Source: a virus. From it: a DNA stretch of 24,032 nucleotides. Position 1 is the first letter of the stretch. The number at the start of each line of letters is the position of its first letter. The translations under genes and the position numbers were made by a program. The notes under the pieces are model-generated. The model saw only the letters and a list, made by a program, of their open reading frames with translations. It made no database searches and was not told where the DNA came from. The stretch lies in the IMG/VR virus record IMGVR_UViG_3300036780_000008, positions 1-24,032 of that record. One strand, 5' to 3'. Positions 3,125 to 22,398 of this stretch are shown piece by piece.

Positions 3125-3127
3125 TAG

Positions 3128-5135: not shown

Positions 5136-5136
5136 G

Positions 5137-5796
5137 TTAGTTTACTTTCGTTATTTGAGGAGTATTTGAATATTCATGAACTAAAAGGGCAATAATAATA
5201 GCACCGAACGTAACTATACCCATAATAATCCAGAATAGTTCCGGAGAAGAAGACTGTGATGCCGCTGCAGCACCTGCAACAACAACTGCAGTACCTGCAA
5301 GAGGACCATTTACTGTATTTACAGGAGCTGAAGTTAAGAACAAGGCTTTCTCTGCAGCTCGTCTACGAACTAGACCTGGCAATACCTGTCCACCTGCCAT
5401 ATTGTATAAAGTAAGATGGTCTGCAGCTTCTGTAAAGTTACTTGAATTAATTAGAGGTAGAGCAGAACTATGTCCCAGGGCTCCAGTATTAAACTGGAAG
5501 CTAACTAAAGCATCAAATTGATTTTGGTTAATAGGAGCCTTTACTAAAGAACTTACGTCTTTTTCAGCACTAGCTAAATCTTTAGAAAGAAGAGCGTCAG
5601 CTTGTGCTTGCATAATCTTATCCCCTACGTGAACATCAGCACCTGTATGTCCATAACCAATAGTCAAAGTACCGATAGGTTTCTCTCCAACAGGTACAAT
5701 TTTATCATTGTGATCATCGTAAGCTTGAAGAATAAGACCTTCAAAACCTTCTATTAATTTACGTCCATTAGAACTTGTTTTCATGTTTCTCTTCAT
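5137..5796 (-). CDS. Endolysin, T4-type lysozyme (GH24-like) with C-terminal membrane segment
   Basis: A 219-residue protein that should cut the beta-1,4 bond between N-acetylmuramic acid and N-acetylglucosamine in peptidoglycan. The N-terminal domain shows the family pattern: LIEGFEGLILQAYDD (near residues 14-28, with the catalytic glutamate in the EGFEG part), TIGYGHTGADVHVG (about 45-58), NQNQFDALVSFQFNTGALG (about 90-108) and GLVRRRAAEKALF (about 141-153). An Ala/Val-rich linker follows, then a hydrophobic stretch LFWIIMGIVTFGAIIIALLV near residues 187-206 and a short polar tail. No N-terminal signal or SAR segment is seen, so the membrane segment is at the unusual end. Start: ATG at 5796 has no Shine-Dalgarno site; ATG four codons later (5784) has a weak AAGAGA. 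Three membrane-protein genes follow. Confidence 0.85.
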   Translation of the reverse strand: MKRNMKTSSNGRKLIEGFEGLILQAYDDHNDKIVPVGEKPIGTLTIGYGHTGADVHVGDKIMQAQADALLSKDLASAEKDVSSLVKAPINQNQFDALVSFQFNTGALGHSSALPLINSSNFTEAADHLTLYNMAGGQVLPGLVRRRAAEKALFLTSAPVNTVNGPLAGTAVVVAGAAAASQSSSPELFWIIMGIVTFGAIIIALLVHEYSNTPQITKVN

Positions 5797-5802
5797 TGTT
5801 AG

Positions 5803-7032: not shown

Positions 7033-7033
7033 A

Positions 7034-7465
7034 TTAAGTCATTTGGAATAAACCGTTCGTAGCATCGAACGATACAGTAAACGTATCTCCTGAATTCAGA
7101 GAAATAGATGAACCATAATCAAACCAACAGACTAAAGGTTTTAGTGGACTAGAAGGTGTAGTATCATAGAATACAACATACCTAAAAGGCCCCATTCCTC
7201 CGCTAGTTCCAGTCCAAGTTACGTTAGTAGCTAATACTTTCTCAGTACCTGAAGTACTTGAGTCAGATGTAGCAGAACTAATTCCTCCTGTAGTGTACCC
7301 ACCTCCACTGGCTACTTCATTACCAGAGATATCTCCATATAGATGATTGGTAGCTACCGGAGCTGTATTAGTCAACATTACCTTAAAAGTATCTGAAGCA
7401 TTGAAGTTATATACCCCACGACATACGTCTTCAGTAAATAGATTAAACTTGTTGTAACTGGCCAT
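7034..7465 (-). CDS. Phage virion protein, unknown role
   Basis: A 143-residue protein beginning MASYNKFNLFTEDVCRGVYN, with DTFKVMLTNTAPVATNHLYG (residues ~25-44), GGYTTGGISSATS, and a C-terminal GDTFTVSFDATNGLFQMT. I recall proteins of this length and pattern in structural modules of many tailed phages, usually near fibre genes, without an assigned job. It has a good Shine-Dalgarno site, AGGA seven bases before the ATG. The downstream gene begins one base after its stop. Composition (Gly, Ser, Thr, aromatic residues) suggests a beta-sandwich domain. The call of virion protein rests on this recollection and the neighbours. Confidence 0.6.
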   Translation of the reverse strand: MASYNKFNLFTEDVCRGVYNFNASDTFKVMLTNTAPVATNHLYGDISGNEVASGGGYTTGGISSATSDSSTSGTEKVLATNVTWTGTSGGMGPFRYVVFYDTTPSSPLKPLVCWFDYGSSISLNSGDTFTVSFDATNGLFQMT

Positions 7466-7503
7466 AGATATATCCTGTTTCTGCTTTTAATACATAGTGC
7501 ATG

Positions 7504-8700
7504 TTAAGCTGCCGTTGTTACATTAGTCCAAGTAGTAGAACCATCTGTATTAACATAAAGACGTGTACTAGTACTTGAGCCTGCAACGTTCATATATAGC
7601 GAACCTTGTGCGGCCGATACTGTTGGAGCTCCTGTTCCAAAGTACACACCTAAATGTGCTGTAGAAGACATTAGATAAGCAGTATCTACTGCTCCTCCAG
7701 ATGGAACTGCGGTACCTGAGAATATAGTATGTTTCCCAGTAGTAACTAAAGATGTGCCTGTCGCTGCCCCTAAAACTGGAGTTACTAAAGTTGGAGTAGT
7801 AGCTAAGACTGCTGAACCTGTTCCAGTAACAGCAGTAACACTAGTACCATTAATCTTAAAGGAGTTACCAGTACCTGCAGTATCAAATAACTTATTAGTC
7901 AAGGTATCAGTAGTCGCTCTACCTACGTAAGTATCTGTACCTTGGAAGGTGAGAGTCGTAGAATCTGTTCCTGCTAAAGTAAGACTATTATTAACTGTTA
8001 ATGTCTTCCCACTAGCAACAGTTAAAGTACCTGTAGTAGAAGTTATAGTTAAACCATTAAGTGTAGTTACTGTAGCTACTCCTAAAGCAGGAGAAGCAAA
8101 CGAAGGAGAACTAGACATCACTACGGAACCGGTCCCCGTTACAGAAGTAATTGGGGTTCCGTTAATATAGAATAGATTACCTGTTCCAGCTGTATCAAAA
8201 GTTTTATTGGTTAAAATATCCGTAGTAGCTTTACCAATCAGAGTATCATTAGCAGAAGGTAGAGTTAATGTTCCTGTTGCAGTGGATGCCGCTTGCAATG
8301 TAGTAGATCCACCTGAACTCCCTGTAAAGATAGCGGTGGCAAAGGAATTAGCTCCTGAAGAACTCCACGTGACATCGAAATTAGTATTGGAGTTTTTAAC
8401 TAGAGACTGACCTGTAGTTCCTCCAACTGGCAAAGGATTGACTGTAATAGACCCTCCTCCACTAATTGTTGAGACATCTACTAACCTAAGAGGTTCAAAG
8501 CTACTTATAGGTAATGGTAGATTCATAATCCTGTTTGAATTCATATCAAGAGAAGAACCCATCTGATTAGGAGAGGTTCCGTCTCTAGATAATGTATTAT
8601 CAAACGCAGTTTGAATTGTAGAAAAGTTAAAGTTTAAGTCAGCTGTAGCAGAAGTATCATTCTGCAAGCTAGCAAAGGTTGTAAGCGATATCTTATCCAT
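7504..8700 (-). CDS. Tail fibre/spike-like protein with duplicated repeats
   Basis: A 398-residue protein whose first ~75 residues follow a phage fibre N-terminal pattern: MDKISLTTFASLQNDTSAT, then FSTIQTAFDNTLSRDGTSP, then QMGSSLDMNSNRIMNLPLP. The rest is Thr/Ser/Gly-rich beta-type sequence with two long internal copies: TTDILTNKTFDTAGTGN...INGTPITSVTGTGSVV and TTDTLTNKLFDTAGTGN...INGTSVTAVTGTGSAV. The C-terminus (GAPTVSAAQGSLYMNVAGSS, then TRLYVNTDGSTTWTNV) looks like the closing beta domain seen in other phage fibre proteins. It probably forms a trimeric fibre or spike used for host binding. The start overlaps the end of the small coiled-coil gene by 8 bases; no strong Shine-Dalgarno site is seen, so coupling is likely. 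Confidence 0.7.
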   Translation of the reverse strand: MDKISLTTFASLQNDTSATADLNFNFSTIQTAFDNTLSRDGTSPNQMGSSLDMNSNRIMNLPLPISSFEPLRLVDVSTISGGGSITVNPLPVGGTTGQSLVKNSNTNFDVTWSSSGANSFATAIFTGSSGGSTTLQAASTATGTLTLPSANDTLIGKATTDILTNKTFDTAGTGNLFYINGTPITSVTGTGSVVMSSSPSFASPALGVATVTTLNGLTITSTTGTLTVASGKTLTVNNSLTLAGTDSTTLTFQGTDTYVGRATTDTLTNKLFDTAGTGNSFKINGTSVTAVTGTGSAVLATTPTLVTPVLGAATGTSLVTTGKHTIFSGTAVPSGGAVDTAYLMSSTAHLGVYFGTGAPTVSAAQGSLYMNVAGSSTSTRLYVNTDGSTTWTNVTTAA

Positions 8701-8839
8701 CTTGTTTTATTTCCTCAGAATGACTAAGCCAATGCTTACATTCTTGTATAGCACCATCGTAAGCAGCGAGAGTTACTTTAATTTGCTCTCGTTCTTGCTC
8801 TAGAAGTTGTAGCCGTTCTTCTAACTTTTCTTTAATCAT
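8693..8839 (-). CDS. Small coiled-coil phage protein (48 residues)
   Basis: An ORF found by reading the gap between two fibre-like genes: ATG at 8839, stop at 8693-8695, 48 residues. It begins MIKEKLEERLQLLEQEREQ, continues IKVTLAAYDGAIQECKHWL and ends SHSEEIKQDG. The first half is strongly helical with leucine/glutamate heptads. Short proteins with this 'coiled coil then (A/F)-x-D-G-A-I-Q-x-C' shape occur in many phage structural modules as I recall, without known function. It starts 1 base before the upstream stop codon ends and overlaps the fibre gene start by 8 bases, which supports real, coupled translation. It may be a chaperone or trimerisation helper for the fibre, which is speculation. 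Confidence 0.65.
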   Translation of the reverse strand: MIKEKLEERLQLLEQEREQIKVTLAAYDGAIQECKHWLSHSEEIKQDG

Positions 8840-8840
8840 A

Positions 8841-9377
8841 TTATGATGTAGCGAACGGAGTTGCAAGAGTTCCGGAAGCAGTCACCGTACCTTCAATAGT
8901 CCATACAGTAGAAGTAACGCAGGTAATCGAGAAAGTATCCCCGATAGATGCACCACCAGTGGTCGTACCATTCAGATTAACTGATCTAATAGTAGAACCA
9001 TCTGCATCGTATCTAGTTACAGTCAGAGACTTATCAAAGTTAAGCCCGCCTGCAAGAAATACCGAAGATGGGGTAATAATCTTATAGGTATTGCTAGTAC
9101 AAACAGTACCGACGATAAACTTATAAGTAGTCCCCACTACAGCTGCAGGCAAAGTAATAGTAGAACCTGTTAAGCTATTTAGAGTAAAGATAGTACCGGT
9201 TTGTGTAGAAGTAGGTGATAGAGTAGTAGTGGTAACACTTGCGGTATTTGCCGAACCAGTGCCCCCCACTAAAGAATTACTACCAGTGCTCGTTTTAGTA
9301 TTGGGCATGGAAGCGCCCGTAGTAATGGAGTTAACGATCAAATCGTTACCGCCTAAGTCGAGAGGCCTTGATGCCAT
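8841..9377 (-). CDS. Virion surface/fibre-like protein
   Basis: A 178-residue, Thr/Ser/Gly-rich protein starting MASRPLDLGGNDLIVNSITT. The stretch TIFTLNSLTGSTITLPAAVV, then GTTYKFIVG (about residues 62-90), and VWTIEGTVTASGTLATPF at the end look like a beta-sandwich capsid-associated or fibre domain. The Shine-Dalgarno site is good (AGGAG nine bases upstream of ATG). It follows the capsid and one other virion gene, separated from them by a hairpin at 9410-9431. A head decoration or fibre role is plausible; no family is recognised with certainty. No enzyme motif or membrane segment is visible. Confidence 0.5.
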   Translation of the reverse strand: MASRPLDLGGNDLIVNSITTGASMPNTKTSTGSNSLVGGTGSANTASVTTTTLSPTSTQTGTIFTLNSLTGSTITLPAAVVGTTYKFIVGTVCTSNTYKIITPSSVFLAGGLNFDKSLTVTRYDADGSTIRSVNLNGTTTGGASIGDTFSITCVTSTVWTIEGTVTASGTLATPFATS

Positions 9378-9409
9378 TATTTGTTTCTCCTTGATTATTT
9401 AAGTATAGC

Positions 9410-9431
9410 AAGGGAGATTTTACTCCCCCTT
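9410..9431 (-). terminator. Hairpin between head and fibre genes, possible partial terminator or processing site
   Basis: On the minus strand AAGGGGGAG pairs with CTCCCTT around a TAAAAT loop (two extra G in the 5' arm). There is no uridine run after it; the sequence continues GCTATACTTAAAT. It is therefore weak as a terminator and could instead slow RNA decay or act as a processing site that keeps capsid mRNA abundant. The TATACT after it has no matching -35 at the right distance. Confidence 0.35.
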
Positions 9432-9443
9432 ACCATATGTAGA

Positions 9444-10169
9444 TTAGTACGTGATATTACCGTAGACCGTGTATCTGACACGAACCTTGATAAGACCATT
9501 GGTAAACGTACCAGTAGCAATCGTAGACAACCACGCACTTGTAGGAAGCGGAGTAATTGCATTAGTCACTAGTGGCATCGCTGAACCAACCCAACCCCCT
9601 CCGCCGGCAACGTTAGAAGCCGTGGCATACAACAAACCAGTAGAACCTGGTTGAGTAAAAAGGGTCTTGTACCCAGCAGTTCCTATGTTTACGATAAGCA
9701 TAGCTTTCACAATTTGATCGCCTGCTGCACCACCATTAGGAGTTACTTGGACAAAGGAAGAACCAGTAGGCGAAGGTGAAGTCGTAACCAAACCTATCGA
9801 AAAACTTGTTCCACCAGTTGCAGCAACCAACGTCTCAACTTCCACAGATTCAATAAAGATCTGTGAATTAGTGATCTGAAGGACACTGTTAGTTGTAGTT
9901 ATTTGGGGTGCACTTTGCTGCAATGGCATAAACGTAGTCATCGATTGAATACCAGCTGCTCCTGGCGTACCTGTTCCAGAGAACGTAGTTGGTGCAGCAG
10001 GAACTGTAATTCCAGATGCAGTCAACTGATACGGGACAAAAGCAACTAATTGTTCGACTTCTCGCGTTTCACCATAAACAAGGTAGTCACCACCAAGTTC
10101 GGGAATAGTCTTCTGCGTACCATACTGGAGCGGAAGACCGTCATCGTTAAACCAAAATCCTGTTGACAT
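9444..10169 (-). CDS. Probable virion protein next to capsid (decoration protein candidate)
   Basis: A 241-residue protein beginning MSTGFWFNDDGLPLQYGTQK and containing ETREVEQLVAFVPYQLTASG near residues 35-54. The middle is Thr/Ser/Gly-rich, with SQIFIESVEVETLVAATGG, and it ends LIKVRVRYTVYGNITY. The ATG is preceded by an almost complete Shine-Dalgarno sequence (AAGGAGGTGAT), the strongest in the late operon, so high expression is likely. It follows the capsid candidate by 12 bases. High expression right after the capsid gene fits a major virion component such as a head decoration protein, but no family signature is recognised. No membrane segment or cysteine pair is visible. Confidence 0.55.
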   Translation of the reverse strand: MSTGFWFNDDGLPLQYGTQKTIPELGGDYLVYGETREVEQLVAFVPYQLTASGITVPAAPTTFSGTGTPGAAGIQSMTTFMPLQQSAPQITTTNSVLQITNSQIFIESVEVETLVAATGGTSFSIGLVTTSPSPTGSSFVQVTPNGGAAGDQIVKAMLIVNIGTAGYKTLFTQPGSTGLLYATASNVAGGGGWVGSAMPLVTNAITPLPTSAWLSTIATGTFTNGLIKVRVRYTVYGNITY

Positions 10170-10181
10170 TATATCACCTCC

Positions 10182-11138
10182 TTACGTCACAATAGTTGTT
10201 GAAGTAAGAACAGTGACCATGTTCTCAGGACGGTATAGCTTAAAGCCATACTCAGCGATGGTTAAATATTCATCTTGCTGAAGATCCTTGTTGAACTCGT
10301 TATAGACCGTAGGCATCTGTCTGAAGCCTCCGATCCATGGCATAGTATCGCCAGGAGCAGCAGAGAAGAAGTAGTTAGCCACGCCACTGGTCACAGTAAC
10401 GCCGTTAATTGTTTCCGAAGCAATTGCAGGGAGATAGTTAGAAACATAGACATCGAAGCCATAGAGATTGAAACGGAATTTGAATCCCGTAACAGCTCCA
10501 GACTTAATGACATCTTCCCACATCGGCATCGGAGACAATAGATTAACAGTATTAGCTTGAGTTTGCATCGTGTATGCAACGGTAGGATCAACAATCGCAA
10601 CCAGGTTTATCAAAGGAACATTAGCCTTTACAAGGGCATAGTGAGCCTTAGCGAAATCCTGGAATGCGAGAGCTTGATTGACACCGGAGCCTACGAAACG
10701 ATGGTTTGCTGTGTTAATTACATTTAAGCTACTAGCAGTCTGTCCAGCATTAGCAACAGCAAGAATCCGAGTCTCGACCGCTTCCATAAGAGAACGGTGT
10801 TGACGGGGAACGAAGGCAGCAACTACATCAGCTGAGTAGAAGCTATCTCTCTTGAATTTTTCCGAAATGGCATGTGCTGAATACTTGTATTGATCAAAAT
10901 TGAATACAAAGTTACCAGTAGCCATCGCATTGTACTTAATCGCCTGCCCCTCAGTGAAGTCGGCAGTTTCTGCCTCACCAATTGAAGGAATATTGATTTG
11001 CGTACCATCCGGGAAATCTTGGATAATGCGGACAAACTTCATAGCATTCAGCTCATCTAAGAGCAACTCTTTGATCTGACGAGACCACAGATTTGTTCTT
11101 AGAAGATTAGCTGTGTTGGCATCATTAAAGCCAGCCAT
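10182..11138 (-). CDS. Major capsid protein (HK97-type fold, probable)
   Basis: A 318-residue protein placed straight after a scaffold-like gene and expressed from a strong Shine-Dalgarno site (AAGGAGACAAACTG before ATG). The N-terminal part (LWSRQIKELLLDELNAMKFV, about residues 17-36) followed by GTQINIPSIGEAETADF fits the N-arm and early strands of HK97-like capsids. KANVPLINLVAIVDPTVAYT near 171-190 fits the P-domain pattern, and the C-terminal MPWIGGFRQMPTVYNEFN, then EYGFKLYRPENMVTVLT, fits the closing strands. No cleaved prohead protease target is seen. The length is typical for small-genome phages. Codon use looks more G+C rich than in the scaffold and portal genes, as expected if translation is tuned for abundance. 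Identification is from context and pattern. Confidence 0.75.
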   Translation of the reverse strand: MAGFNDANTANLLRTNLWSRQIKELLLDELNAMKFVRIIQDFPDGTQINIPSIGEAETADFTEGQAIKYNAMATGNFVFNFDQYKYSAHAISEKFKRDSFYSADVVAAFVPRQHRSLMEAVETRILAVANAGQTASSLNVINTANHRFVGSGVNQALAFQDFAKAHYALVKANVPLINLVAIVDPTVAYTMQTQANTVNLLSPMPMWEDVIKSGAVTGFKFRFNLYGFDVYVSNYLPAIASETINGVTVTSGVANYFFSAAPGDTMPWIGGFRQMPTVYNEFNKDLQQDEYLTIAEYGFKLYRPENMVTVLTSTTIVT

Positions 11139-11164
11139 CAGTTTGTCTCCTTAGTTAGGGTTTG

Positions 11165-11941
11165 TTAGCCGTCTCCATAGACTTTAAAGTCTCCATCCAT
11201 GAACGCGGTTCCGAGTTCTTGCATGTCTTTATCCATCTGGACGGCAATCTTTGGATCGTAATAGATTTTAGGATTCTTGGCTTTAAGATCTTGGTAATAA
11301 GACCAAGTACGCTTCTGGCTACCCTTTTGGTTAAAGTTGTCGCTTATTCGGGTAGAACGAGGCGGTGTTTGGAAGTTTTGCTGTTGAACTTGAGTATCTA
11401 ATCCAAACATTCTATAAAAGACCGTTGGATTATCTCTAGCCAAGTTATTGGCATATTCTTCTGTTATTCCTAATTCATCTATCTGTTGCTTAAGAACATC
11501 TTGATAATTAGAACCAAGACGTTCCTTCAGTCTGTTCCTTACAGAGTTGAAATTATCATTCTGCTTCTTAGAAGTTTCATGTTCTTGTATCTTACTAGAC
11601 ACAAGACTTTCAATCTGTTGGGAATCTAATCCAGGCTTATCCACTTTCGCAGTTATGGTGTTTTCGCTAATTGCAGGTTGCTGGGAAGGCTGTTTATGTA
11701 GTTGGTCAATAAACTCTTCTAGCTTAGCTCTGGCTTCATAGTCTTCTTTCAACTTTAGATAATCTCTTCGAAGTTCGTCCTTCTGCATTTCTAAAGTCTT
11801 TATGTAGTGGTCTGATTGCCACTTACCTTTTGCAAGTTCTTGCTGGTCTCTGAACTTCTTACCTTCTCCCACAAGTTCTTGATAGAAATCTTGTGGTTCT
11901 TGAGGTGGGGTCGCCTCTATATCTAATAGATTATCGGTCAT
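11165..11941 (-). CDS. Capsid scaffolding-like protein
   Basis: A 258-residue, highly charged, Q/E/K-rich protein without hydrophobic core segments. Residues ~45-90 (YIKTLEMQKDELRRDYLKLK, then EDYEARAKLEEFIDQLHKQ) form a clear coiled coil, and another helical region follows (SSKIQEHETSKKQNDNFNSV). The C-terminus KIYYDPKIAVQMDKDMQELG is acidic/basic amphipathic, as in scaffolds that bind capsid with their C-terminal helix. It has a CAGGAG Shine-Dalgarno site and lies between the portal group and capsid, the normal place for a scaffold that directs procapsid assembly and then leaves. No protease motif is seen, so removal rather than self-cleavage is likelier. Confidence 0.7.
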   Translation of the reverse strand: MTDNLLDIEATPPQEPQDFYQELVGEGKKFRDQQELAKGKWQSDHYIKTLEMQKDELRRDYLKLKEDYEARAKLEEFIDQLHKQPSQQPAISENTITAKVDKPGLDSQQIESLVSSKIQEHETSKKQNDNFNSVRNRLKERLGSNYQDVLKQQIDELGITEEYANNLARDNPTVFYRMFGLDTQVQQQNFQTPPRSTRISDNFNQKGSQKRTWSYYQDLKAKNPKIYYDPKIAVQMDKDMQELGTAFMDGDFKVYGDG

Positions 11942-12217
11942 TTAATCTCCTGGTAGTAATATTTTCTGATTGTCTATGTCGACTAATTTCTTTGCAACTG
12001 CTAACCCGGCTCTATAACCATTCTTAAATGCTTGTTTATAAGGCCAGTTAGTGTTGTCGTAAGCTTTAGGGTCTAGCTCTGTTCTATCTAATGTTTTCTC
12101 TTCTATCTCCATTAAATCTTTAATACGATTTAAAACTGGTTTAGAAGCTAATACGGTTTCTTTAAATCTGTTTTGCTCTTCTTCTGTAGATAAGTGTGAG
12201 GTCCACTTAGTGTACAT
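11942..12217 (-). CDS. Small head-module protein, unknown
   Basis: A 91-residue protein, MYTKWTSHLSTEEEQNRFKE at the start, then VLNRIKDLMEIEEKTLDR and NWPYKQAFKNGYRAGLAVAK before the end. It is mostly helical and charged. It sits between portal (1 base apart) and scaffold (immediately adjacent) with a good GGAG Shine-Dalgarno site. In several podovirus head modules a protein of about this size lies between portal and scaffold, without known activity. No zinc, nuclease or membrane motif is visible. A role in head assembly is inferred from position only. Confidence 0.6.
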   Translation of the reverse strand: MYTKWTSHLSTEEEQNRFKETVLASKPVLNRIKDLMEIEEKTLDRTELDPKAYDNTNWPYKQAFKNGYRAGLAVAKKLVDIDNQKILLPGD

Positions 12218-14056
12218 TTAGCGTCTCCGCTGTGCTTGAGGGGGAGCTCCTTGTGGTTGTTGTGGTTGCTGAGGTACAACTGATGCTAGAGGATTACCTC
12301 CTTCAGTATCATAGTCTTCACCTTGTCCAGTAGCAGTACCTGCTTCCATATGTAATTGTTCTTGTAGAGCTTGTGTATGTCTCTGAGCATCAGCTTGTTC
12401 AGCTAAAGCTACATACGGTAGAACTACTTGATATTCTTTCAAGTCAAACACATCTTCAAATACTTTAGCCAACTGTACCCCAGAGAAATGCATCATAACA
12501 GTCTGCCACAAAGGTGAGCTAGAAAGTTGAGTTAAGTTCTGGACTAGCTCTGCTTGCTCAGCAAAGTGTCTAGCAGCAATAGGTTTAATCCTACCTACGC
12601 CAGTAATATCTTCTACCGTAAGATCTTGGAATGTAGTTATCTTGAAATCGTCATCAAAGACTTTAATTGAAGTAGTACCCACCATATTACGTCTAGCAAG
12701 TTCTAACATAGCATTTAATACTAATTCTACAATCTGCTCTTCAAACTGAGTTATCTTATTCTGGAACAGTCTACCGGAAGCGTTCTCCAGACGTTGTACT
12801 TCGTATTTAGTCTTCTCACCTGGACTTCTGAAACCCATGGCTTCCTTAGGTGCACCTGCCATAAGCTCCATGGTATTCTCTAGCTTCTCTATCTTCATAT
12901 CAGCTGAGAGAACATCTACCTTCGGAACTACTAGATCTACATCTCCTTCTTCAGAGACGAAGATCTTCTCACCAGGTTGCCATGTATAGTCTTCTACGAA
13001 TCCCTTTATCTTCTGCACTGGAAACGCAGTGAAATCGTAGATGTCAGCCGCCATATTCTCTATGTGATCAAGGCGATACTGCATGCCAACAAGATTATCG
13101 AGAGGACCCATGCCCCAAAGATTATCTTGCTTCTTTCTCCAAGGAGCGTGGAAGATAGGGGGATACCCAAAAAAAGAAGGATTAGACTTGTTACCAATAA
13201 GTTTGTGTCTGTCAACAACCGTTATAACCCTATTGTTCTCAAACGTATCGTTTATATAGTCGTGATAGTCTCCGTAGAAAGTCAGGACTTCCACAAAATC
13301 ACTAAGAAGATAAGCCCTAAAACTAGTGAAACCGTCAACAGCATAGAGCCGATCGCGTTGTATCCAATCTCCTTGAAAAGTCCTTGCGTGGAATCTGATC
13401 TTTTTGAGATAGTTGTAGAGTTCTTCGATTTCCGCTTGATTCTCATCGTTAGTCATCCGATCTAACATCTTCCTAAGTTCACCCATACTTACTATGGATC
13501 TTACAATCTTAGGAGACTGTATATAGTTTTCAGCAGTAGGATTCATAATCATATCCAGAGGACTGATACGTCTTAAAGACGGACCTACAAAGCCTGCTTG
13601 AACTTTATCCTTTTGTTGTACTCTTTGGTCTGTCCATTCAACAGTAGCAAAGCAATTACCAAAATCAATAAAGTCTAGAATTATCTTGTCTAATTCATGC
13701 TTAAATGAAGGTTGCTCTATGCACCAAGACATATAGTTGATAATAGCATCTCGCTTCTGAACAGAATTAGAATCCTTTTCATTAGCTTCCCATATCAACC
13801 ATTTCCTCTTAGGAAATAGAGTAGCAGTATAATTGGAATAGAGATTATCCCTAATCTGACACAACTTAGGTACAGTGGTCTTATTCTTCCAGGGTAATTG
13901 TGAATTGGTTGTCTGAGTAGTGTCTGTTGCATAGACATATCTACGTATCTCTTCCCAATCGTTCTTCTTAACCTGGCGCATAGTATCCCACTCTATGAAC
14001 CGTTCTGTTATCCTTACTGCAAGCTGATCTGGTTCGATCACATTTTGCAGCTCCAT
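12218..14056 (-). CDS. Portal (head-tail connector) protein
   Basis: A 612-residue protein that should form the dodecameric ring through which DNA enters and leaves the head. Portal-like elements are visible: an N-terminal helix with KKNDWEEIRRYVYATDTTQT, the stretch NLWGMGPLDNLVGMQYRLDH near residues 305-324, AADIYDFTAFPVQKIKG near 329-345, and GAPKEAMGFRSPGEKTKYEV near 405-424 followed by a long helix (FQNKITQFEEQIVELVLNAM). The last ~60 residues are Q-, P- and A-rich and probably disordered. It lies downstream of terminase and the HNH gene and upstream of scaffold. There is only a weak ribosome site before ATG. At 612 residues it is longer than T7 connector, nearer to P22-like portals in size. 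Confidence 0.85.
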   Translation of the reverse strand: MELQNVIEPDQLAVRITERFIEWDTMRQVKKNDWEEIRRYVYATDTTQTTNSQLPWKNKTTVPKLCQIRDNLYSNYTATLFPKRKWLIWEANEKDSNSVQKRDAIINYMSWCIEQPSFKHELDKIILDFIDFGNCFATVEWTDQRVQQKDKVQAGFVGPSLRRISPLDMIMNPTAENYIQSPKIVRSIVSMGELRKMLDRMTNDENQAEIEELYNYLKKIRFHARTFQGDWIQRDRLYAVDGFTSFRAYLLSDFVEVLTFYGDYHDYINDTFENNRVITVVDRHKLIGNKSNPSFFGYPPIFHAPWRKKQDNLWGMGPLDNLVGMQYRLDHIENMAADIYDFTAFPVQKIKGFVEDYTWQPGEKIFVSEEGDVDLVVPKVDVLSADMKIEKLENTMELMAGAPKEAMGFRSPGEKTKYEVQRLENASGRLFQNKITQFEEQIVELVLNAMLELARRNMVGTTSIKVFDDDFKITTFQDLTVEDITGVGRIKPIAARHFAEQAELVQNLTQLSSSPLWQTVMMHFSGVQLAKVFEDVFDLKEYQVVLPYVALAEQADAQRHTQALQEQLHMEAGTATGQGEDYDTEGGNPLASVVPQQPQQPQGAPPQAQRRR

Positions 14057-14067
14057 TACTTTACCAA

Positions 14068-14550
14068 CTATGACACCACTCCTTTATAAGTTAAAATATC
14101 TTTGCATAGAGAAAGTAACGCTTGTTCTCCATACGCATTCAAAGCAGTGTTTACTTGGTAACACACGAATCTAACATTTCCTTTAAGATATCCTTTATTG
14201 GAATCTATTCTATCTAAAGAAGGAGCATTAGCTTTAACTGTTTCTATTTTCTCAGGTCTTTGTAAATCGAACTTACGTCCAGATATTGCGCAAAGTCCTT
14301 CCTGACTTTCCCACAACTCTATTAAAAACTTTGGAGTTAAATTAAATTCAAGACTTTGTACTTTAGATCTAAACTTAGCCATCTGACAAAGTTTTCTACA
14401 ACGATATCGATAATCTTTCTTTACTTTATCCCAAGCATCTAATTTAGCATATTTAGATTGACATGATACGGTGCAATAAATTTTCTTATGGTGTTTAGAT
14501 TCAAAAGAAGTTCCGCACCTGCAAATTTTCAAGCTGCTACGCCGCCCCAA
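14068..14550 (-). CDS. HNH endonuclease, probable homing enzyme between terL and portal
   Basis: A 160-residue protein if translation starts at TTG 14550, or 154 if it starts at TTG 14532, which overlaps the terL stop (CTTGA) and seems more likely. There is no ATG before the conserved part. The N-terminus has a zinc-ribbon-like set of cysteines (C10, C12, C26, C30 in the long form). A Lys/Arg-rich helix follows, then LCAISG (87-91) and the HNH core SLDRIDSNKGYLKGNVRFVC (111-130) with VNTALN at 133-138. This matches small phage HNH nucleases that cut DNA at homing sites. It overlaps terL by 4-22 bases and sits between two packaging genes that are often adjacent, so it looks like an inserted mobile gene. 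The target site cannot be seen. Confidence 0.8.
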   Translation of the reverse strand: MGRRSSLKICRCGTSFESKHHKKIYCTVSCQSKYAKLDAWDKVKKDYRYRCRKLCQMAKFRSKVQSLEFNLTPKFLIELWESQEGLCAISGRKFDLQRPEKIETVKANAPSLDRIDSNKGYLKGNVRFVCYQVNTALNAYGEQALLSLCKDILTYKGVVS

Positions 14551-16100
14551 CGTGGATGAAACTGTACTGCATGTTGTTGTAATCTTATCCTAGTAAAGTT
14601 GTTTGAAGGAGCAGTTGAGAAGTCTATTGCTGAAGCTAGAGCATCTTTAACGTCATCATGAGATGGATTAAAATATAGAAGTTCTTCTTCTAAGATCTGG
14701 CAATTACCTCCTGGATAGTGCCAAATCTGATGATTAGCATATTTAGGCTCTAAGACTGCGTTAATCCGTTCATCTTTAGAACCTTGGAATCTGGACGGAC
14801 GGAATTCGTCTACAGACAAGCTCAACCCCATTGGACGTATATAATTATCTTTCAGGTCCTGTACGATTACTGCTTGTGCTACAGATACTTCCGCCCTAAT
14901 CTTTCTAAAGGACCACTTTTCGTAGAGCTTTAGTATTCTATTAAAATACTCAGAAATCTTATCTGTCCGAAATCTATCTATTTCTAATATATAGTAGTTC
15001 TGATAACCGTCTAAACCTATTACTACAATAGACGTATAATCTGCCTTCTTACCTAACGAGAATGCAAAGTCTACCGCAGCTACTACATTTAACGGTTCTC
15101 TCTTGAAGAACCAGTGAAAATCTCTTCTAGATATATAGTTAGGATCATAATACTGAAACAGCTCCCGTTGTATAGGAGATGATTCTACATCATGCGGATC
15201 ATTATAGTATTGGGCTCTAAAATGTAACTTGTTGAGATATTGGGCTCTCTTATCTGCCAACACCTTAGCATCAAAACCGTACCATCTTCCATTTGGAGAT
15301 TGTTGACGTGGCCAGAGGAATTCTCCAGTTCCGTCTCCGATACTTTCGACTGGGTATTCTTTGATCTCGAAAAGAGGTTCCGAACGTATCTTATCACCGA
15401 ATTCATCGTATTCATCAACTTCCATCGATACTAATTCTGAATATAGATCCTTAGGATGATATCTAGTGCCGACTACCCATTCCTTAGAATTAACACCTTC
15501 TACAGAAGACAAGTAAGAATACTGATCTCTAACCTTAGTCCTACCTTCTTCTAAATAGGCATTCCCTTGAACAACAACGTCATCCAAGATAGCTATATCG
15601 CAGTGAAGACCGACAATGTTACTAGTAAGACCTGCGGTAAAGATAGAAGGATCTCGGATCGCCTCTTGTTTACGTAAAGGATGATCTAAAGAGATTTCAC
15701 GTTGAGTCCAGAGTTCTCTCTTAGACTCTTCTTTCTCAACCATATCAGGCCAAAAGAGCCTATAAGTATCCGAAGTAAAGATATCTTTAATAAACTTAAG
15801 TTGCTTAGTAGCAAGGTTTGATGTAGAAGAGATAAGAAGAACCCGTAACGAAGGATCCTTAGTAAGCTCCCAAGCTATTCGGTAAGCAACCAACGTACTC
15901 TTCATATGATCACGAGGAAGCAGAAGTAACTGATGATTCTTGGCATCTTGCCTAGTCCACCACCTTATCACCTCTCTATGCACATTCCCTAGAATACGCC
16001 TAGGATGAACAAGATTAATAAACTTCTCTAAACTTGCTTCTGCTGCTAACTTATGCTGCAGACGATCATCTGTTATTTTACTAGTCTTTTTTCGTATCAC
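14529..16100 (-). CDS. terL: Terminase large subunit
   Basis: A 523-residue ATPase/nuclease that packages DNA into the prohead. The ATPase part has a variant Walker A, LPRDHMKST (residues ~61-69), Walker B DIAILDD (168-174) followed by acidic residues, and the coupling motif VVGTRYHPKDLY (209-220). The nuclease part has the RNase H-like acidic triad candidates D344 in VVAAVDFAF, E404 in IRAEVSVAQ and D486 in HDDVKDALA. The start is GTG at 16100, without a visible Shine-Dalgarno site, 5 bases after the previous stop, so coupling is likely. No obvious small subunit gene lies upstream. Two fibre-like genes precede it instead. Confidence 0.9.
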   Translation of the reverse strand: MIRKKTSKITDDRLQHKLAAEASLEKFINLVHPRRILGNVHREVIRWWTRQDAKNHQLLLLPRDHMKSTLVAYRIAWELTKDPSLRVLLISSTSNLATKQLKFIKDIFTSDTYRLFWPDMVEKEESKRELWTQREISLDHPLRKQEAIRDPSIFTAGLTSNIVGLHCDIAILDDVVVQGNAYLEEGRTKVRDQYSYLSSVEGVNSKEWVVGTRYHPKDLYSELVSMEVDEYDEFGDKIRSEPLFEIKEYPVESIGDGTGEFLWPRQQSPNGRWYGFDAKVLADKRAQYLNKLHFRAQYYNDPHDVESSPIQRELFQYYDPNYISRRDFHWFFKREPLNVVAAVDFAFSLGKKADYTSIVVIGLDGYQNYYILEIDRFRTDKISEYFNRILKLYEKWSFRKIRAEVSVAQAVIVQDLKDNYIRPMGLSLSVDEFRPSRFQGSKDERINAVLEPKYANHQIWHYPGGNCQILEEELLYFNPSHDDVKDALASAIDFSTAPSNNFTRIRLQQHAVQFHPRWGGVAA

Positions 16101-16105
16101 AATGT

Positions 16106-17236
16106 TTAATTACTTGGACTCGTACTGGCGTTGGTGAGAGTACCGGTGAGAGAGAAGTCTCCACCTGTACCTTGGTTAATTGGAAACGTTGTTGAATCAC
16201 CGCTGAAAAGCATTGCAGCACTCGGAAAACCAGACGGATCCATGGGCTTTTTGGTGGCACTTATGAACAATCTTCTTGTAGCGTCAGGGATCGTCAACCC
16301 ACCTGGAAGGCTGACACCAAGATTAACCAACGTCGATGAACCGGTTTGTTGAATTTGATCATTGACACTGATAACTGTTTCAAACTCAGAACTCACGTCA
16401 ACTTTACTAGTATAGTCAAACACCCCGGAAACGGATTGTCCAGCAACCGCACCTAATAGCGTAACTGGACCTGGACCAGCTCCGCTCGGATTGGCTGCTA
16501 ATATTTTTAAGGCTGGACTGCCTCCTTCCAGCAGGGATACACCTGGAGCAACCCACAAATCGGCGAAATCACCAACCACACCATCCGAAAATCCATCATC
16601 GAAAACAGTAACTTTTTTCCCATTGTTGACCATCGTAAAAGATGGATTGACATCCTGTGCTGCCCCCAAGTCATAGACATCATCAATATACACCGTAGCA
16701 ATCTTGTTTCCTGCTGAAGCATTTGTTTTCACGGAAATCAAATAATGATGCCAAGAGCTATCAAAAGGTTCTGCGTAGAAACCTCCCAAAAGCCCGCTTG
16801 ATCCATCTTCGCTGTTGAAATCGTAACTAGGATTGTTTGTTTGAGCATCTAACCCGTTTACGTAGGAATTATCTGGGTCAGTAATCGTTATGACACCCGT
16901 ACCCCCAACTCCTGAAATATCTTTCCACCAATACGAAGCCGAATAATTTTCATTATCTAAGCCGGCCGCACTTAGGGCCTCGTTGATCAAAATAACTGTT
17001 CCGTCTGTATGCACCGCCTTGGCAACATAACTACCACCGCCTCCAGTATAAATAGTTCCATTACCATCTGTTAAGACTCTGTATCTGGAACCATCTGGAG
17101 AACGATTACCACGTAATTGTTTTAGGCCTCCAGTAATCAAAACTGGATCTGAAGAAAGATTACCTACTCCATCTGTAAAGGTAGAGTATGTACTGCCATC
17201 TGGAGCAATAGATCCAATTAATTGTTTAGCGGTCAT
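16106..17236 (-). CDS. Lectin-like virion/fibre protein with two TAKQL-type modules
   Basis: A 376-residue protein. Residues 1-30 and about 37-66 are two copies of a small module, K-Q-L-x-G-x-x-[AS]-P-D-G-S-x-Y-x-x-x-T-D-G-x-G (first TAKQLIGSIAPDGSTYSTFT, then LKQLRGNRSPDGSRYRVLTD). A central region reads FYAEPFDSSWHHYLISVKTN then KIATVYIDDVYDLG, the core pattern of LamG/concanavalin A-like lectin domains. The C-terminus is Gly/Ser/Thr-rich. It probably binds sugar on the host or in the virion surface. It starts with TAATG against the upstream gene's stop. Unlike most late genes its codons are visibly richer in G and C, which suggests acquisition or replacement by recombination. Confidence 0.6.
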   Translation of the reverse strand: MTAKQLIGSIAPDGSTYSTFTDGVGNLSSDPVLITGGLKQLRGNRSPDGSRYRVLTDGNGTIYTGGGGSYVAKAVHTDGTVILINEALSAAGLDNENYSASYWWKDISGVGGTGVITITDPDNSYVNGLDAQTNNPSYDFNSEDGSSGLLGGFYAEPFDSSWHHYLISVKTNASAGNKIATVYIDDVYDLGAAQDVNPSFTMVNNGKKVTVFDDGFSDGVVGDFADLWVAPGVSLLEGGSPALKILAANPSGAGPGPVTLLGAVAGQSVSGVFDYTSKVDVSSEFETVISVNDQIQQTGSSTLVNLGVSLPGGLTIPDATRRLFISATKKPMDPSGFPSAAMLFSGDSTTFPINQGTGGDFSLTGTLTNASTSPSN

Positions 17237-17604
17237 TAAGCTACGCTCGTTATAATCCCATTAGTAACACTAACAGTTTTAGTTGCTAGGTCGGTACCAG
17301 TGAATGTTCCTGTGAATGCTGAAGAAACATCTAACGTATTTGTCCCTAAAGTCAGAGTTCCAGTACCGGTTGTAATAGTATTACCATTAACGGTAGTAGG
17401 CGTAATATCTCCTAGAGTTAAAGTAATAGCTGGAGTTGTGGTAGCTGTAGCTACAGAACCTGATACACCGTTAGCGGTTACTACTGAGGTAGAAGTAACG
17501 GTTCCTGTACCTGTAAAGTCTACTAAATTACCTTCACCGTCGGTGAGAGTAACATATTCCGAACTATCAGGAGCTTGATAACCTGTTAGTTGTTTGGCAG
17601 TCAT
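17236..17604 (-). CDS. Small fibre-like protein with an N-terminal TAKQL module
   Basis: A 122-residue protein. Residues 1-28 (TAKQLTGYQAPDSSEYVTLT plus DGEGNL) are a third copy of the module found twice in the next gene. The remainder is Thr/Val/Gly-rich repeat-like sequence (NGNTITTGTGTLTLGTNTLD), typical of phage fibre shafts. The shared N-terminal module could be a docking domain that fixes different tips to the same site on the virion; that is inference. The gene overlaps the upstream small gene by ATGA and the downstream gene by TAATG. It lies before terminase, an odd place for a fibre gene. Confidence 0.55.
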   Translation of the reverse strand: MTAKQLTGYQAPDSSEYVTLTDGEGNLVDFTGTGTVTSTSVVTANGVSGSVATATTTPAITLTLGDITPTTVNGNTITTGTGTLTLGTNTLDVSSAFTGTFTGTDLATKTVSVTNGIITSVA

Positions 17605-17774
17605 TTGTAGTTACTTCCTTCACAAGACAGACCTAGTTCCTTCTTAGTTACGTCATTAAATTGGACAGCAACAGAAGTAGGAGGAATAGTTCCCTTTGGA
17701 TGAGGACTATCCTTCTTACCTGTAATATTGTCACCTGTAGTTTGGTATCTACGTACCTTTTCGTTAATTGCCAT
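17601..17774 (-). CDS. Small protein, unknown (57 residues)
   Basis: An ORF read directly from the sequence: ATG at 17774, TGA at 17601-17603 overlapping the next start (ATGA). It begins MAINEKVRRYQTTGDNITGK and includes GTIPPTSVAVQFNDVTKKEL, ending with SCEGSNYK. It is polar with no membrane segment. Ribosome site is weak (AAGAAAG). The ATGA overlap and the fit into the row of short genes argue that it is translated. No family recognised; it may assist the fibre-like protein that follows. Confidence 0.6.
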   Translation of the reverse strand: MAINEKVRRYQTTGDNITGKKDSPHPKGTIPPTSVAVQFNDVTKKELGLSCEGSNYK

Positions 17775-17785
17775 TGTTCACTTTC

Positions 17786-18001
17786 TTAATTTGTATACCC
17801 TGGACCAGGAACAACTTTACCCCCACCGGTCATATCTCCCTTGGAATCAAACTTAGGAACTGGAGTATCTCTGAAAGTTCCTTTTAACCTATTGTAATCT
17901 GACTCAGCCCCTGATACAGGAAACTTAACTACATCTCCTGCCATCTGAGTCCCAGGTTTAGGGAAACTAGAGTGTACTAATTCTTCATGAGAATTGACCA
18001 T
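17786..18001 (-). CDS. Small protein, unknown (71 residues)
   Basis: A 71-residue protein, MVNSHEELVHSSFPKPGTQM at the start, PVSGAESDYNRLKGTFRDTP in the middle and KVVPGPGYTN at the end. It is rich in G, P and charged residues, probably flexible, with no cysteine or membrane segment. Start overlaps the upstream stop by one base (TAATG), as in several other gene pairs here. It is followed 11 bases later by the next small gene. No family is recognised; placement suggests a minor virion or assembly factor. Confidence 0.6.
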   Translation of the reverse strand: MVNSHEELVHSSFPKPGTQMAGDVVKFPVSGAESDYNRLKGTFRDTPVPKFDSKGDMTGGGKVVPGPGYTN

Positions 18002-18195
18002 TACGGAGTAAACCCTGTGCCTAGAGCTTGAGTAGGATCAAACATCTGTTGACCTGGATTCTGCATTTGAGGTACTGCAGGCGCTTGCATGAAGGAAGGC
18101 ATAGGTTCCTGCTGTCCTGCTTGCTGCTGTTGTTGCTGTTGAGTTTTAGAATGCTTAGGGGAAACTTTACTCCCAGCTTTTGGTGCACGTTTCAT
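18001..18195 (-). CDS. Gln-rich basic small protein (64 residues)
   Basis: A 64-residue protein with a very basic N-terminus (MKRAPKAGSKVSPKHSKT), a run of seven glutamines, and a Q/P/M-rich C-terminal half (MPSFMQAPAVPQMQNPGQQM). It is likely disordered. The Gln run is coded by mixed CAA and CAG codons (about 18120-18140), a simple-sequence tract that could vary in length by slippage. The start overlaps the upstream membrane-protein stop by 4 bases and its own stop overlaps the next start by 1. Function unknown; a nucleic-acid- or capsid-binding minor protein is one guess from charge. Confidence 0.6.
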   Translation of the reverse strand: MKRAPKAGSKVSPKHSKTQQQQQQQAGQQEPMPSFMQAPAVPQMQNPGQQMFDPTQALGTGFTP

Positions 18196-18467
18196 TTAGT
18201 CGATTCTCCAATTATTTCTTCTCTGTTTGTCCTAGGTAAGGATTTCTCCATGTGAAGTCTAAGTTCCCAAATATTCTTGTCTACGTTGGCAAATCTAACA
18301 TCATCATGTTTTTCATGGTATTCTAGTTTAGATATGATACTATCTTTAGTTTCATAGATAGAATTGATAACGATAGCAAACTGTCTTGCAAACCACCACG
18401 CTAGGGACCATGAAGCACCTATAGCTCCTAGGACAGTTGCTCCGATATAATAGACAACAGGATCCAT
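18192..18467 (-). CDS. Membrane-anchored coiled-coil protein (91 residues)
   Basis: A 91-residue protein with one N-terminal hydrophobic segment (residues ~5-33, YYIGATVLGAIGASWSLAWW) and a long charged helix (TKDSIISKLEYHEKHDDVRF, then NIWELRLHMEK), ending basic. This is the shape of phage BhlA-like holin/bacteriocin membrane proteins and of inner-membrane spanins, but the gene is 13 kb from the endolysin in the same operon, so the lysis link is weak. The Shine-Dalgarno core AAGGAG is directly next to the ATG with no spacer, and no other start exists in the frame, so translation may be inefficient or coupled. Confidence 0.55.
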   Translation of the reverse strand: MDPVVYYIGATVLGAIGASWSLAWWFARQFAIVINSIYETKDSIISKLEYHEKHDDVRFANVDKNIWELRLHMEKSLPRTNREEIIGESTK

Positions 18468-18488
18468 CTCCTTAGAATTTTATTAAAC

Positions 18489-18806
18489 TTAAGGAGTAGT
18501 AGTACCTGCCGCAACAATAGCTGTGGTAGTAGGAGTAGTAGGTGCAGTTACAGTTGCGGGAGCTAGAGCAGCCTGAGCAGCAGTAACAGCAGTATTCAGT
18601 TGAGTAACAACAGCCTCAACAGCTGCATCCTCAGCTGCCGCAGAAGTACTGACTGCAACTTGTAGCTGGGATACTAGAGTTTGGATTTCAGCGATAGCTG
18701 CGTTAACTGCGTCAGTGAGATCGGTAATAGCTTGAGTCATAAGTTTTTGTTCCTTTAGTTGTTCTTTGTAAATATCTAGTAATTCTTGTAGTTCTTTGTT
18801 AAACAT
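18489..18806 (-). CDS. Coiled-coil/Ala-Thr-rich small protein (105 residues)
   Basis: I choose ATG at 18806 (MFNKELQELLDIYKEQLKEQ); an ATG at 18899 would extend it across the upstream gene and is unlikely. The first ~65 residues are a long coiled coil (ITDLTDAVNAAIAEIQTLVS), and the C-terminal 40 are an Ala/Thr/Val/Pro-rich low-complexity tail (PATVTAPTTPTTTAIVAAG). No membrane segment. The ribosome site is poor, and a perfect 6-bp hairpin (18810-18824) is just before the ATG, so access to the start may be limited. Function is unknown; coiled-coil plus flexible tail suggests an assembly or structural accessory protein. Confidence 0.6.
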   Translation of the reverse strand: MFNKELQELLDIYKEQLKEQKLMTQAITDLTDAVNAAIAEIQTLVSQLQVAVSTSAAAEDAAVEAVVTQLNTAVTAAQAALAPATVTAPTTPTTTAIVAAGTTTP

Positions 18807-18846
18807 TAAATTTACTTCGTAAATGTGAATAACATTTAATTTACTT
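18802..18846 (-). repeat. Duplicated translation start region with hairpin
   Basis: AACATTAAATTTACTT (18802-18817) and AACATTTAATTTACTT (18831-18846) are direct repeats, 15 of 16 bases equal and 29 bases apart. On the minus strand each contains an ATG; the upstream copy opens a 7-codon mini-ORF (18835 to 18812, MLFTFTK) that stops just before the real ATG at 18806. Between them ATTTAC-TTC-GTAAAT (18810-18824) forms a perfect stem. Together they look like a duplicated initiation region with a hairpin that may tune translation. Confidence 0.55.
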
Positions 18847-19015
18847 AGTGTATGATTGGTCCGAAGATTCTCCAACCTAACAGAGCGAATAGTACCCAAG
18901 TAAGGACTGAATTAAACCCTATTAGAAACGGGCTATCCTTCCAAGCAGTATACCCACCTATAATAGACAATCCACATAGGATCATCAAGAACCAAAATAG
19001 TAAACCTACGTCCAT
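18845..19015 (-). CDS. Small two-segment membrane protein (56 residues)
   Basis: Read from the sequence: ATG at 19015, TAA at 18845-18847. The product starts MDVGLLFWFLMILCGLSIIG, continues GYTAWKDSPFLIGFNSVLTW and ends VLFALLGWRIFGPIIH. Two hydrophobic helices (about residues 4-22 and 33-50) with a short polar turn give a hairpin topology. It resembles small holin-like or superinfection-related phage membrane proteins in shape only. It lies 3 bases downstream of the preceding short gene. Early position in the late operon would make it one of the first late products. Confidence 0.6.
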   Translation of the reverse strand: MDVGLLFWFLMILCGLSIIGGYTAWKDSPFLIGFNSVLTWVLFALLGWRIFGPIIH

Positions 19016-19018
19016 TGT

Positions 19019-19162
19019 TTATCTTCCTCTACTAGCTCTACGAGGTATCTTTCTACCTTTAGAAGCTTTATTCCATTCATCTACGTTAACACCTTGTTTT
19101 TCTAGAGATTTCTTATGGATGTTAAAGTAAGCGGCTTGAGCTTTAGATTTGTAAGGCATCAT
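19019..19162 (-). CDS. Small basic phage protein, MPYKSKAQA type (47 residues)
   Basis: Read from the sequence: tandem ATG codons at 19162 and 19159, TAA at 19019-19021. The product is (M)MPYKSKAQAAYFNIHKKSLE, then KQGVNVDEWNKASKGRKIPR, then RASRGR. Short basic proteins starting MPYKSKAQ are common in phage genomes as I recall, without firm function. A GAAGG ribosome site is 6 bases before the second ATG, which is preferred. It overlaps the end of the upstream gene by 20 bases in another frame. The high K/R content suggests nucleic acid or membrane-surface binding. Confidence 0.65.
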   Translation of the reverse strand: MMPYKSKAQAAYFNIHKKSLEKQGVNVDEWNKASKGRKIPRRASRGR

Positions 19163-19313
19163 CTACCTTCATTTTTAATTCGACAATAGAATTATCTCTA
19201 TCTTCATAACGTTGTTCATAAGTTTGTCTTTCTTCTGGAGACTGGTTATCCCACTTCTCCCATAAGGTCTTGTTCCAACGTTTACCTAATGGAAATCCCT
19301 TTCCCTTAGGCAC
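19143..19313 (-). CDS. Small charged protein (56 residues), GTG start
   Basis: Read from the sequence: GTG at 19313, TAA at 19143-19145. It encodes MPKGKGFPLGKRWNKTLWEK, WDNQSPEERQTYEQRYEDRD and NSIVELKMKVDDALQI. There is no ATG between the preceding in-frame stop and this GTG. AGGG seven bases upstream is a fair ribosome site, and the GTG overlaps the stop of the upstream 26-residue ORF (CGTGCCTAA), a typical coupled start. The helical, charged C-terminus (about residues 25-56) could form a coiled coil. No family recognised. Confidence 0.55.
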   Translation of the reverse strand: MPKGKGFPLGKRWNKTLWEKWDNQSPEERQTYEQRYEDRDNSIVELKMKVDDALQI

Positions 19314-19386
19314 GGTCGTACCCTAGTAATCTTAGAAACCAAGTCCAGAAGTTTACTGGATCTCTATTTTTAAATCCATTATTCAT
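19306..19386 (-). CDS. First ORF of the late operon, 26-residue peptide
   Basis: ATG at 19386, stop at 19306-19308, product MNNGFKNRDPVNFWTWFLRL then LGYDRA. A strong Shine-Dalgarno site AGGAG lies 8 bases upstream, and the predicted transcript start is ~31 bases upstream. The stop overlaps the next gene's GTG by a few bases. The aromatic centre (NFWTWFLRLLGY) could lie at a membrane surface. It may be a real small protein or a leader peptide that sets translation of the operon. The good ribosome site is the main support. Confidence 0.5.
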   Translation of the reverse strand: MNNGFKNRDPVNFWTWFLRLLGYDRA

Positions 19387-19414
19387 TGACTTAACTCCTA
19401 ATCTAATATATACT
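19386..19414 (+). promoter_or_regulatory. Sigma70-type promoter, rightward
   Basis: TTGACT at 19386-19391, a 17-base spacer, then TATACT at 19409-19414. Expected transcript start is near 19421, about 34 bases before the ATG at 19455. Its -35 overlaps the first base of the minus-strand start codon. It uses the same hexamers and spacing as the leftward promoter that faces it. Confidence 0.8.
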
Positions 19415-19423
19415 CCTACCAAT

Positions 19424-19452
19424 AGTATAACACATATTAAAGGAAAAGTCAA
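19424..19452 (-). promoter_or_regulatory. Sigma70-type promoter for the late operon, leftward
   Basis: On the minus strand TTGACT (complement at 19447-19452), 17 bases, then TATACT (complement at 19424-19429). Expected start is near 19417, about 31 bases before the ATG at 19386. The two -10 boxes are only 9 bases apart, so one polymerase covers both promoters and they should exclude each other. I see no other clear promoter in the operon. Confidence 0.8.
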
Positions 19453-19454: not shown

Positions 19455-19829
19455 ATGGAATATTTAAATGGTTTTAACTATGCTACGTACCTAAAACGTA
19501 GATTGATGGTAGGACAAGTAGACCCTTGGAGAAGGACAGACGATGGTAAACCTATCTATACTATTCTAGTCCCTGTTGAGACAGCTATCAAAGAATGCGA
19601 GGAATGGTCTGGACAAGACATATCCAGATCAGAGTTTATCAACTATCTTAAACTTAACGATATTCTATGTTTTAGGAATGTAGAAGAGTTTAAGAAACTG
19701 AAAGAAGAACTTAAAGAAATAGAAGAAAAACCTCTGAAAGTTAGGAAAAGACAAATATCAGAAGAACACCGAGAAAAGCTCAGAAATAACGCAAAAAAAG
19801 CTAGGAGTAAGTTGTTAGAGATTTCCTAA
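19455..19829 (+). CDS. Lys/Glu-rich small protein opposite the late operon, possible regulator
   Basis: A 124-residue protein, the only gene read rightward from the shared promoter region. The N-terminal half (YATYLKRRLMVGQVDPWRRT, then GKPIYTILVPVETAIKECEE) looks globular. Residues ~75-95 are a charged helix (VEEFKKLKEELKEIEEKP). The C-terminal stretch RKRQISEEHREKLRNNAKKA (about 97-116) resembles NUMOD3-like DNA-binding helices found beside homing nucleases, so DNA binding is plausible. The AAAGGAAAAG ribosome site sits within the opposing -35 region. A repressor or activator acting on the promoter pair is an attractive guess but is not shown. No strong terminator follows. Confidence 0.7.
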   Translation: MEYLNGFNYATYLKRRLMVGQVDPWRRTDDGKPIYTILVPVETAIKECEEWSGQDISRSEFINYLKLNDILCFRNVEEFKKLKEELKEIEEKPLKVRKRQISEEHREKLRNNAKKARSKLLEIS

Positions 19830-19990
19830 CAAAACTGTAATTAGGTACCGTAGTATAGGACCCCCTCATTTTACTATATATTTGTTAGGGTTTTGTTAGG
19901 GACTTTTCGTAAACGGAGCCTTTTTCATATTTTGTTTTCTAGGATATAAAAATTGTCCGGTATTTTTGAGGATGAGTTCAATGAACTTTT

Positions 19991-20005
19991 GGGGACCCCG
20001 TCCCC
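19991..20005 (+). terminator. Possible weak intrinsic terminator after the 19455 gene
   Basis: GGGGAC-CCC-GTCCCC forms a 6-bp all-GC-ended stem; the plus-strand sequence after it is CTATTTCGATTTT, a broken T tract. It could end rightward transcription from the 19455 gene, or be part of the structured block. The stem is clear; its function is uncertain. Confidence 0.35.
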
Positions 20006-20400: not shown

Positions 20401-20426
20401 AAAAAAGGCACCCGAACTAGGGTGCC
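20401..20426 (-). terminator. Intrinsic terminator of the leftward two-gene unit
   Basis: On the minus strand GGCACCC pairs with GGGTGCC around a 6-base loop and is followed by six T. It is a textbook rho-independent terminator, 26 bases after the 20452 gene stop, and it isolates this unit from the non-coding block and the gene at 19455. Confidence 0.9.
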
Positions 20427-22361: not shown

Positions 22362-22398
22362 TGTTAGCTCCTTTGGCTGACGGAATGTCAGTGTCAGT

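Follow-up and report, generated by a model that had tools for sequence, protein, structure and literature searches.

The late-operon head and its neighbours

The stretch of DNA analysed here, called the window in the following, comprises 24,032 nucleotides of the metagenomic IMG/VR record IMGVR_UViG_3300036780_000008 and belongs to an environmental, lytic-type phage. A leftward structural operon begins at the ATG at 19386-19384 and leaves the left edge, so that 19 kb is a lower bound for its length. Family matches for portal, major capsid, tail proteins and lysozyme were obtained among the leftward genes, and the large terminase subunit (TerL) shares 62% identity with its counterparts in Celeribacter phage P12053L and Lentibacter phage ICBM1. 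Judged by these sequence matches, the window represents a Zobellviridae/cobavirus-like podovirus with a structural operon related to that group. SIO1, also a relative by TerL, was reported to lack an RNA polymerase gene (PMC6775973), which is consistent with use of the host polymerase. A search with PF00940 for a phage RNA polymerase gave no matches, the control genomes included, and is uninformative. A temperate lifestyle was rejected, as there is no sign of lysogeny and a search of 84,980 bacterial and archaeal genomes, sensitive to close relatives only, gave no TerL relative. Within the operon, a 160-aa protein overlapping the terminase end (14068-14550, minus strand) resembles by eye an HNH-type endonuclease (LCAISGRKFDL...SLDRIDSNKGY) and has no Pfam or NCBIfam match. 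The 409-aa protein at 5803-7032 carries a GTYTLTGEA-like repeat in several copies in its C-terminal half.

On the right side, the operon head faces the small gene g19455, whose product has a lysine/arginine-rich C-terminus. Searches of Pfam, PHROGs, NCBIfam and PDB gave no significant match for it, DNA-binding families included, and the structure model, with a pLDDT of 54, is too poor for use. Homologues were detected in two other phage lineages only (L002/L003 and L275/L276). An assignment as terminase small subunit was not accepted (E=0.069 only), and a NUMOD3-like C-terminus suspected by eye had no such match in Pfam. The region following the gene (19830-20000) and its counterpart following the homologue in L002 (L002:5390-5560) are partly conserved by eye and contain short frames beginning with MSSMNFWGP and MSSVDFFGP, respectively; the stretch may be a small gene or a signal at a genome end. 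Further downstream, strong terminator-like hairpins precede convergent leftward genes, both in the window (Table 1) and in a two-way form at L002:5868-5892; in cobaviruses, a bidirectional terminator between the genome arms has been reported (PMC6775973). The leftward 554-aa protein at 20892-22556 is without known family match and has a similar protein at the equivalent location of L002 (L002:6456-7970).

Table 1. Features at and around the divergent junction of the window.
Feature	Position	Strand	Remark
Late/structural operon	1..19386	-	large terminase, portal, capsid, tail, lysozyme; leaves left edge
Second late ORF, 56 aa, GTG start	19143..19313	-	by eye like first late ORF of L211
First late ORF, 26 aa (MNNGFKNRDPVNFWTWFLRLLGYDRA)	19306..19386	-
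-35 box TTGACT, rightward promoter	19386..19391	+	first base pair is the A of the first late ATG, opposite strand
AGGAG Shine-Dalgarno, first late ORF	19395..19399	-	within spacer of rightward promoter
-10 box TATACT, rightward promoter	19409..19414	+	not extended; predicted +1 A19421
9-bp centre	19415..19423	.	separates the -10 boxes; expected in both predicted melted regions
Extended -10 (TGTTATACT), late promoter	19424..19432	-	hexamer TATACT at 19429-19424; predicted +1 A19417
AAAGGA Shine-Dalgarno, rightward gene	19439..19444	+	within spacer of late promoter
-35 box TTGACT, late promoter	19447..19452	-	also between Shine-Dalgarno and ATG of rightward gene
g19455, 124 aa, family not assigned	19455..19829	+
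Intrinsic-terminator-like hairpin	20407..20426	-	between rightward unit and next leftward genes

Geometry and symmetry of the opposed promoters

The start codons at 19386 (-) and 19455 (+) are only 68 bp apart and flank two oppositely oriented promoter cores (19386-19452), which together form an overlapping divergent promoter pair between divergent genes. Each core consists of TTGACT, a 17-bp spacer and TATACT; this reading, including the 9 bp between the -10 boxes, had been made in the original prediction and is correct to the base. The hexamer scores are equal, with 10/12 for each promoter, and an extended -10 is present on the late side only. From their sequence, both promoters would be of the bacterial sigma-70 type. 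With the +1 placed seven bases past the -10, an A is predicted as start on both strands, the two being 4 bp apart. The leaders would then be 34 nt on the rightward and 31 nt on the leftward side, in agreement with the expected distance of 31-34 bases to the start codons, and the transcripts would diverge from a near-identical point and each exit through the opposite promoter, as was claimed. If the standard melting from -11 to +3 is applied, the expected melted regions (19410-19423 and 19415-19428) overlap. That one polymerase at a time can use the element, another claim of the original prediction, follows from this geometry of overlapping polymerase sites and melted regions, and exclusive occupancy of the two predicted promoters is a safe inference. 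Each -35 box is placed between the Shine-Dalgarno sequence and the start of the opposite gene, or borders on the start codon there.

The near symmetry ascribed to the 67-base element holds for the promoter boxes and not for the bases around them: across the 67 bp, 20 of 33 pairs are symmetric, which includes all 12 hexamer pairs and only 8 of the remaining 21 (P=0.15). The mirror symmetry is thus that of two similar promoters set symmetrically head to head and not that of a palindrome. A palindromic operator was rejected as the symmetry is essentially limited to the hexamers, and no operator-like repeat beyond them was found in the element. The inverted arms TTGACTT and AAGTCAA are perfect 7-mers and could be taken as the binding site of a dimeric protein, with the promoter likeness being secondary. 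This is highly improbable in our view, because the arms are 53 bp apart, the further symmetry is not significant, and the element length varies among the window and its paired relatives (67, 66 and 70 bp), as is expected from two promoter units around a free centre.

Chance was evaluated by dinucleotide shuffling, in which two inward-facing sites counted as a pair if each scored 10/12 or better and the gap lay between -6 and 15. On average 0.053 pairs are expected per shuffled window, such a pair occurred in 5% of the shuffles, and single sites scoring 10/12 or better are not enriched (8 in the window versus 8.9 in shuffles). By score alone, the pair is therefore improbable only to a moderate degree. 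It becomes convincing by its position at the divergent junction and by its recurrence in two relatives (L228 and L211), and a chance pair is, given both, unlikely.

Recurrence in relatives and in other viruses

Relatives were fetched by terminase and the heads of their late operons inspected. In L228 (the same contig as L002 and L016), TTGACA-17-TATACT lies opposite TTGACA-17-TATTAT with a gap of 8, and these two are the sole sites of at least 10/12 within 7.5 kb upstream of TerL. In L211, TTGACA-17-TATACT lies opposite TTGACT-16-TATAAT with a gap of 13. A promoter of at least 10/12 was found at the late-operon head of 13 junctions, which had been picked partly for holding a strong promoter and therefore demonstrate recurrence and not frequency. 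TGn precedes the -10 in 8 of these 13, whereas the rightward partners in the window, L228 and L211 all lack it. The opposite gene's Shine-Dalgarno sequence within the spacer of the late promoter, and its start codon 1-3 nt past the late -35, were observed in the window, L228, L211 and L210. In nine relatives, a strong late promoter stands without any strong partner nearby (L208, L210, L215, L218, L219, L220, L224, L226 and L231), L209 has a weaker pair candidate, and in the DNA of P12053L and ICBM1 covered here (L239, L243) no opposed pair was found upstream of TerL. L275, in which the g19455 family is present, has a 12/12 late promoter and no facing partner of at least 9/12 at the junction; here another small gene is located between the late promoter and the g19455 homologue, and a 9/12 rightward candidate lies farther upstream. 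Among the heads examined, the opposed pair is hence confined to those of the window, L228 and L211, and L209 may be added as a weak candidate. On the TerL tree, in which many deep branches are unresolved, its presence shows no more clustering than randomly reassigned labels do (167 of 500 shuffles were as low). By sequence comparison, the late promoter recurs through the terminase clade, and its partner is patchy and lineage-specific.

Such a distribution raises the question whether the late promoter alone is real and the rightward match an AT-rich chance by-product, with g19455 being expressed otherwise. The number of chance pairs given above, the missing extended -10 of the rightward box and the late promoters standing alone in L275, L215 and L231 are in line with this. 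However, L228 and L211 have separate rightward partners of 11/12 at the corresponding place, no second plus-strand site reaches 10/12 in the 900 bases before 19455, and g19455 has a good Shine-Dalgarno sequence at a suitable distance. We therefore regard this explanation as unlikely.

The original prediction had put weight on the exact symmetry and had proposed a compact on/off switch between the two units, to be refuted by relatives which keep only one promoter. Neither identical hexamers nor the 9-bp centre are kept in the relatives, so the importance of exact symmetry is not borne out. L275 and most other relatives do keep the late promoter only, whereas L228 and L211 are paired, so that this refutation applies in part. 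As the partner is patchy and missing in L275, a developmental switch is unproven. In such a switch, a regulator, perhaps the g19455 product, would, in the course of infection, move polymerase from the rightward promoter over to the late one, comparable to pLS20 Pc/Pr or lambdoid switches. Unequal overlapping promoters together with a differential regulator can suffice for this (PMC4207663); the two sides serve different modules, and a small protein with a basic C-terminus would fit. Yet the g19455 product has neither a DNA-binding family match nor a reliable structure model, operator-like repeats besides the hexamers are missing, and the absence of close TerL relatives from cellular genomes gives no hint of lysogeny. 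In addition, the g19455 relative L275 has no mirrored partner, and tblastn did not identify the gene opposite the late operon of L211 as a g19455 homologue. Such a regulated switch appears rather unlikely to us. What stands of the original prediction is a sigma-70-type pair at the structural-operon head whose members should compete, without the importance of symmetry and without the on/off switch.

A strict scan of IMG/VR for opposed pairs with a gap of 4-14 bp gave 61 contigs, whereas the reversed pattern occurred in 8, and a single phage family seems to account for many of the 61. With gaps of 15-44 bp, at least 120 rows were obtained, so that no preference for a small -10 gap across viruses can be claimed. 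In the family mentioned, as examined in L052:5251-5316, the pair lies within one operon, between the 3' end of the portal gene and a same-strand 85-aa gene; the second promoter in this layout would point antisense into the portal gene. Similar loci include L007, L015, L024 and L028, and the motif was seen in many contigs with gaps of 4-8 bp. A different layout is that of L012:5488-5555, L021, L030, L037 and L045, in which a pair with a gap of 10 is located between divergent 278-aa and 291-aa genes. Gene starts inside or adjoining the -35 boxes give a compact layout as in the window, in unrelated phages, and the 278-aa protein belongs to the nucleotide-sugar epimerase family; these pairs serve sugar-metabolism genes. 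The DNA near the pair in this group matches Pelagibacter phage Mosig. Opposed-pair geometry thus recurs without obvious regulators, and as similar pairs are found at sugar-metabolism genes or inside one operon, geometry alone does not imply a regulatory switch.

Probable polymerase competition and comparison with known systems

The reading which we consider probable is that of two functional host-type promoters which diverge and compete for polymerase, the late side being probably the stronger one and the interleaving resulting from compaction. Promoter activity, exclusivity, relative strength and compaction as the cause are all inferred from the arrangement described above. Two sigma-70 promoters would fire divergently from starts approximately 4 bp apart, and each would lie over the initial 30 nt of the opposite transcript. 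The leftward promoter would be the main one of the structural operon, its extended -10 making it probably the stronger, and the rightward one would drive the short g19455 unit. As the common central bases would be melted by both, one polymerase at a time could be accommodated and the outputs would compete, with the late promoter dominating unless biased. Compaction would be the main cause: with the start codons in such close vicinity, promoters and ribosome-binding sites have to interleave.

Of the two requirements for a switch, unequal strengths are plausible here and a differential regulator would be hypothetical. It is also conceivable, and in our opinion quite improbable, that in phages without an own RNA polymerase the competition alone, tipped by g19455, changing template number or supercoiling, acts as an activator-free occupancy switch and sets the moment at which the structural operon takes over from the small rightward unit. 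With two divergent promoters competing for host polymerase as the preferred reading, the element is a small, naturally occurring system in which competition for polymerase between opposed, predicted-strong promoters could be studied.

Two kinds of known systems are closest. At the bacterial bidirectional promoters described by Warman, Wade and Grainger, polymerase binds in one orientation at a time (PMC12825309, PMC10268837), and competition matters only if the promoters are strong or activated (PMC12825309). They have one shared or overlapping -10, with starts mostly 18, 10 or 23 bp apart and 7-25 bp by definition, and all five tested examples had low basal activity (PMC12825309, PMC10268837). 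The window resembles them in its divergent transcription with each predicted start within the opposite promoter, but it has two complete near-consensus -10 boxes, both with consensus-like -35 boxes. Grainger's definition does not cover it, since the -10 boxes are separate and the predicted starts 4 bp apart instead of 7-25 bp. With such boxes on both sides, near-consensus pairs as in the window should compete constitutively, with no activator needed; at the published bidirectional promoters, resting activity is too low for competition.

The second kind is the overlapping divergent pair Pc/Pr of pLS20, in which the weak promoter depends on RcoLS20, its own product, and operators and looping form part of the switch (PMC4207663). 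As in pLS20, the promoter of the large operon has an extended -10 and the opposite promoter serves a single gene. Unlike there, both promoters of the window look strong by sequence, and neither regulator nor operator was identified. With Zobellviridae/cobavirus-like podoviruses, the window shares the leftward structural operon, and the opposed pairing is limited to the few heads named above. The arrangement itself is thus already known from bidirectional promoters and pLS20 Pc/Pr. The neat detail here is that each -35 lies within, or edges, the opposite gene's interval between Shine-Dalgarno sequence and start, by which two promoters, two ribosome-binding sites and two start codons are packed into about 70 bp and the -35 box is reused as ribosome-binding-site spacing.
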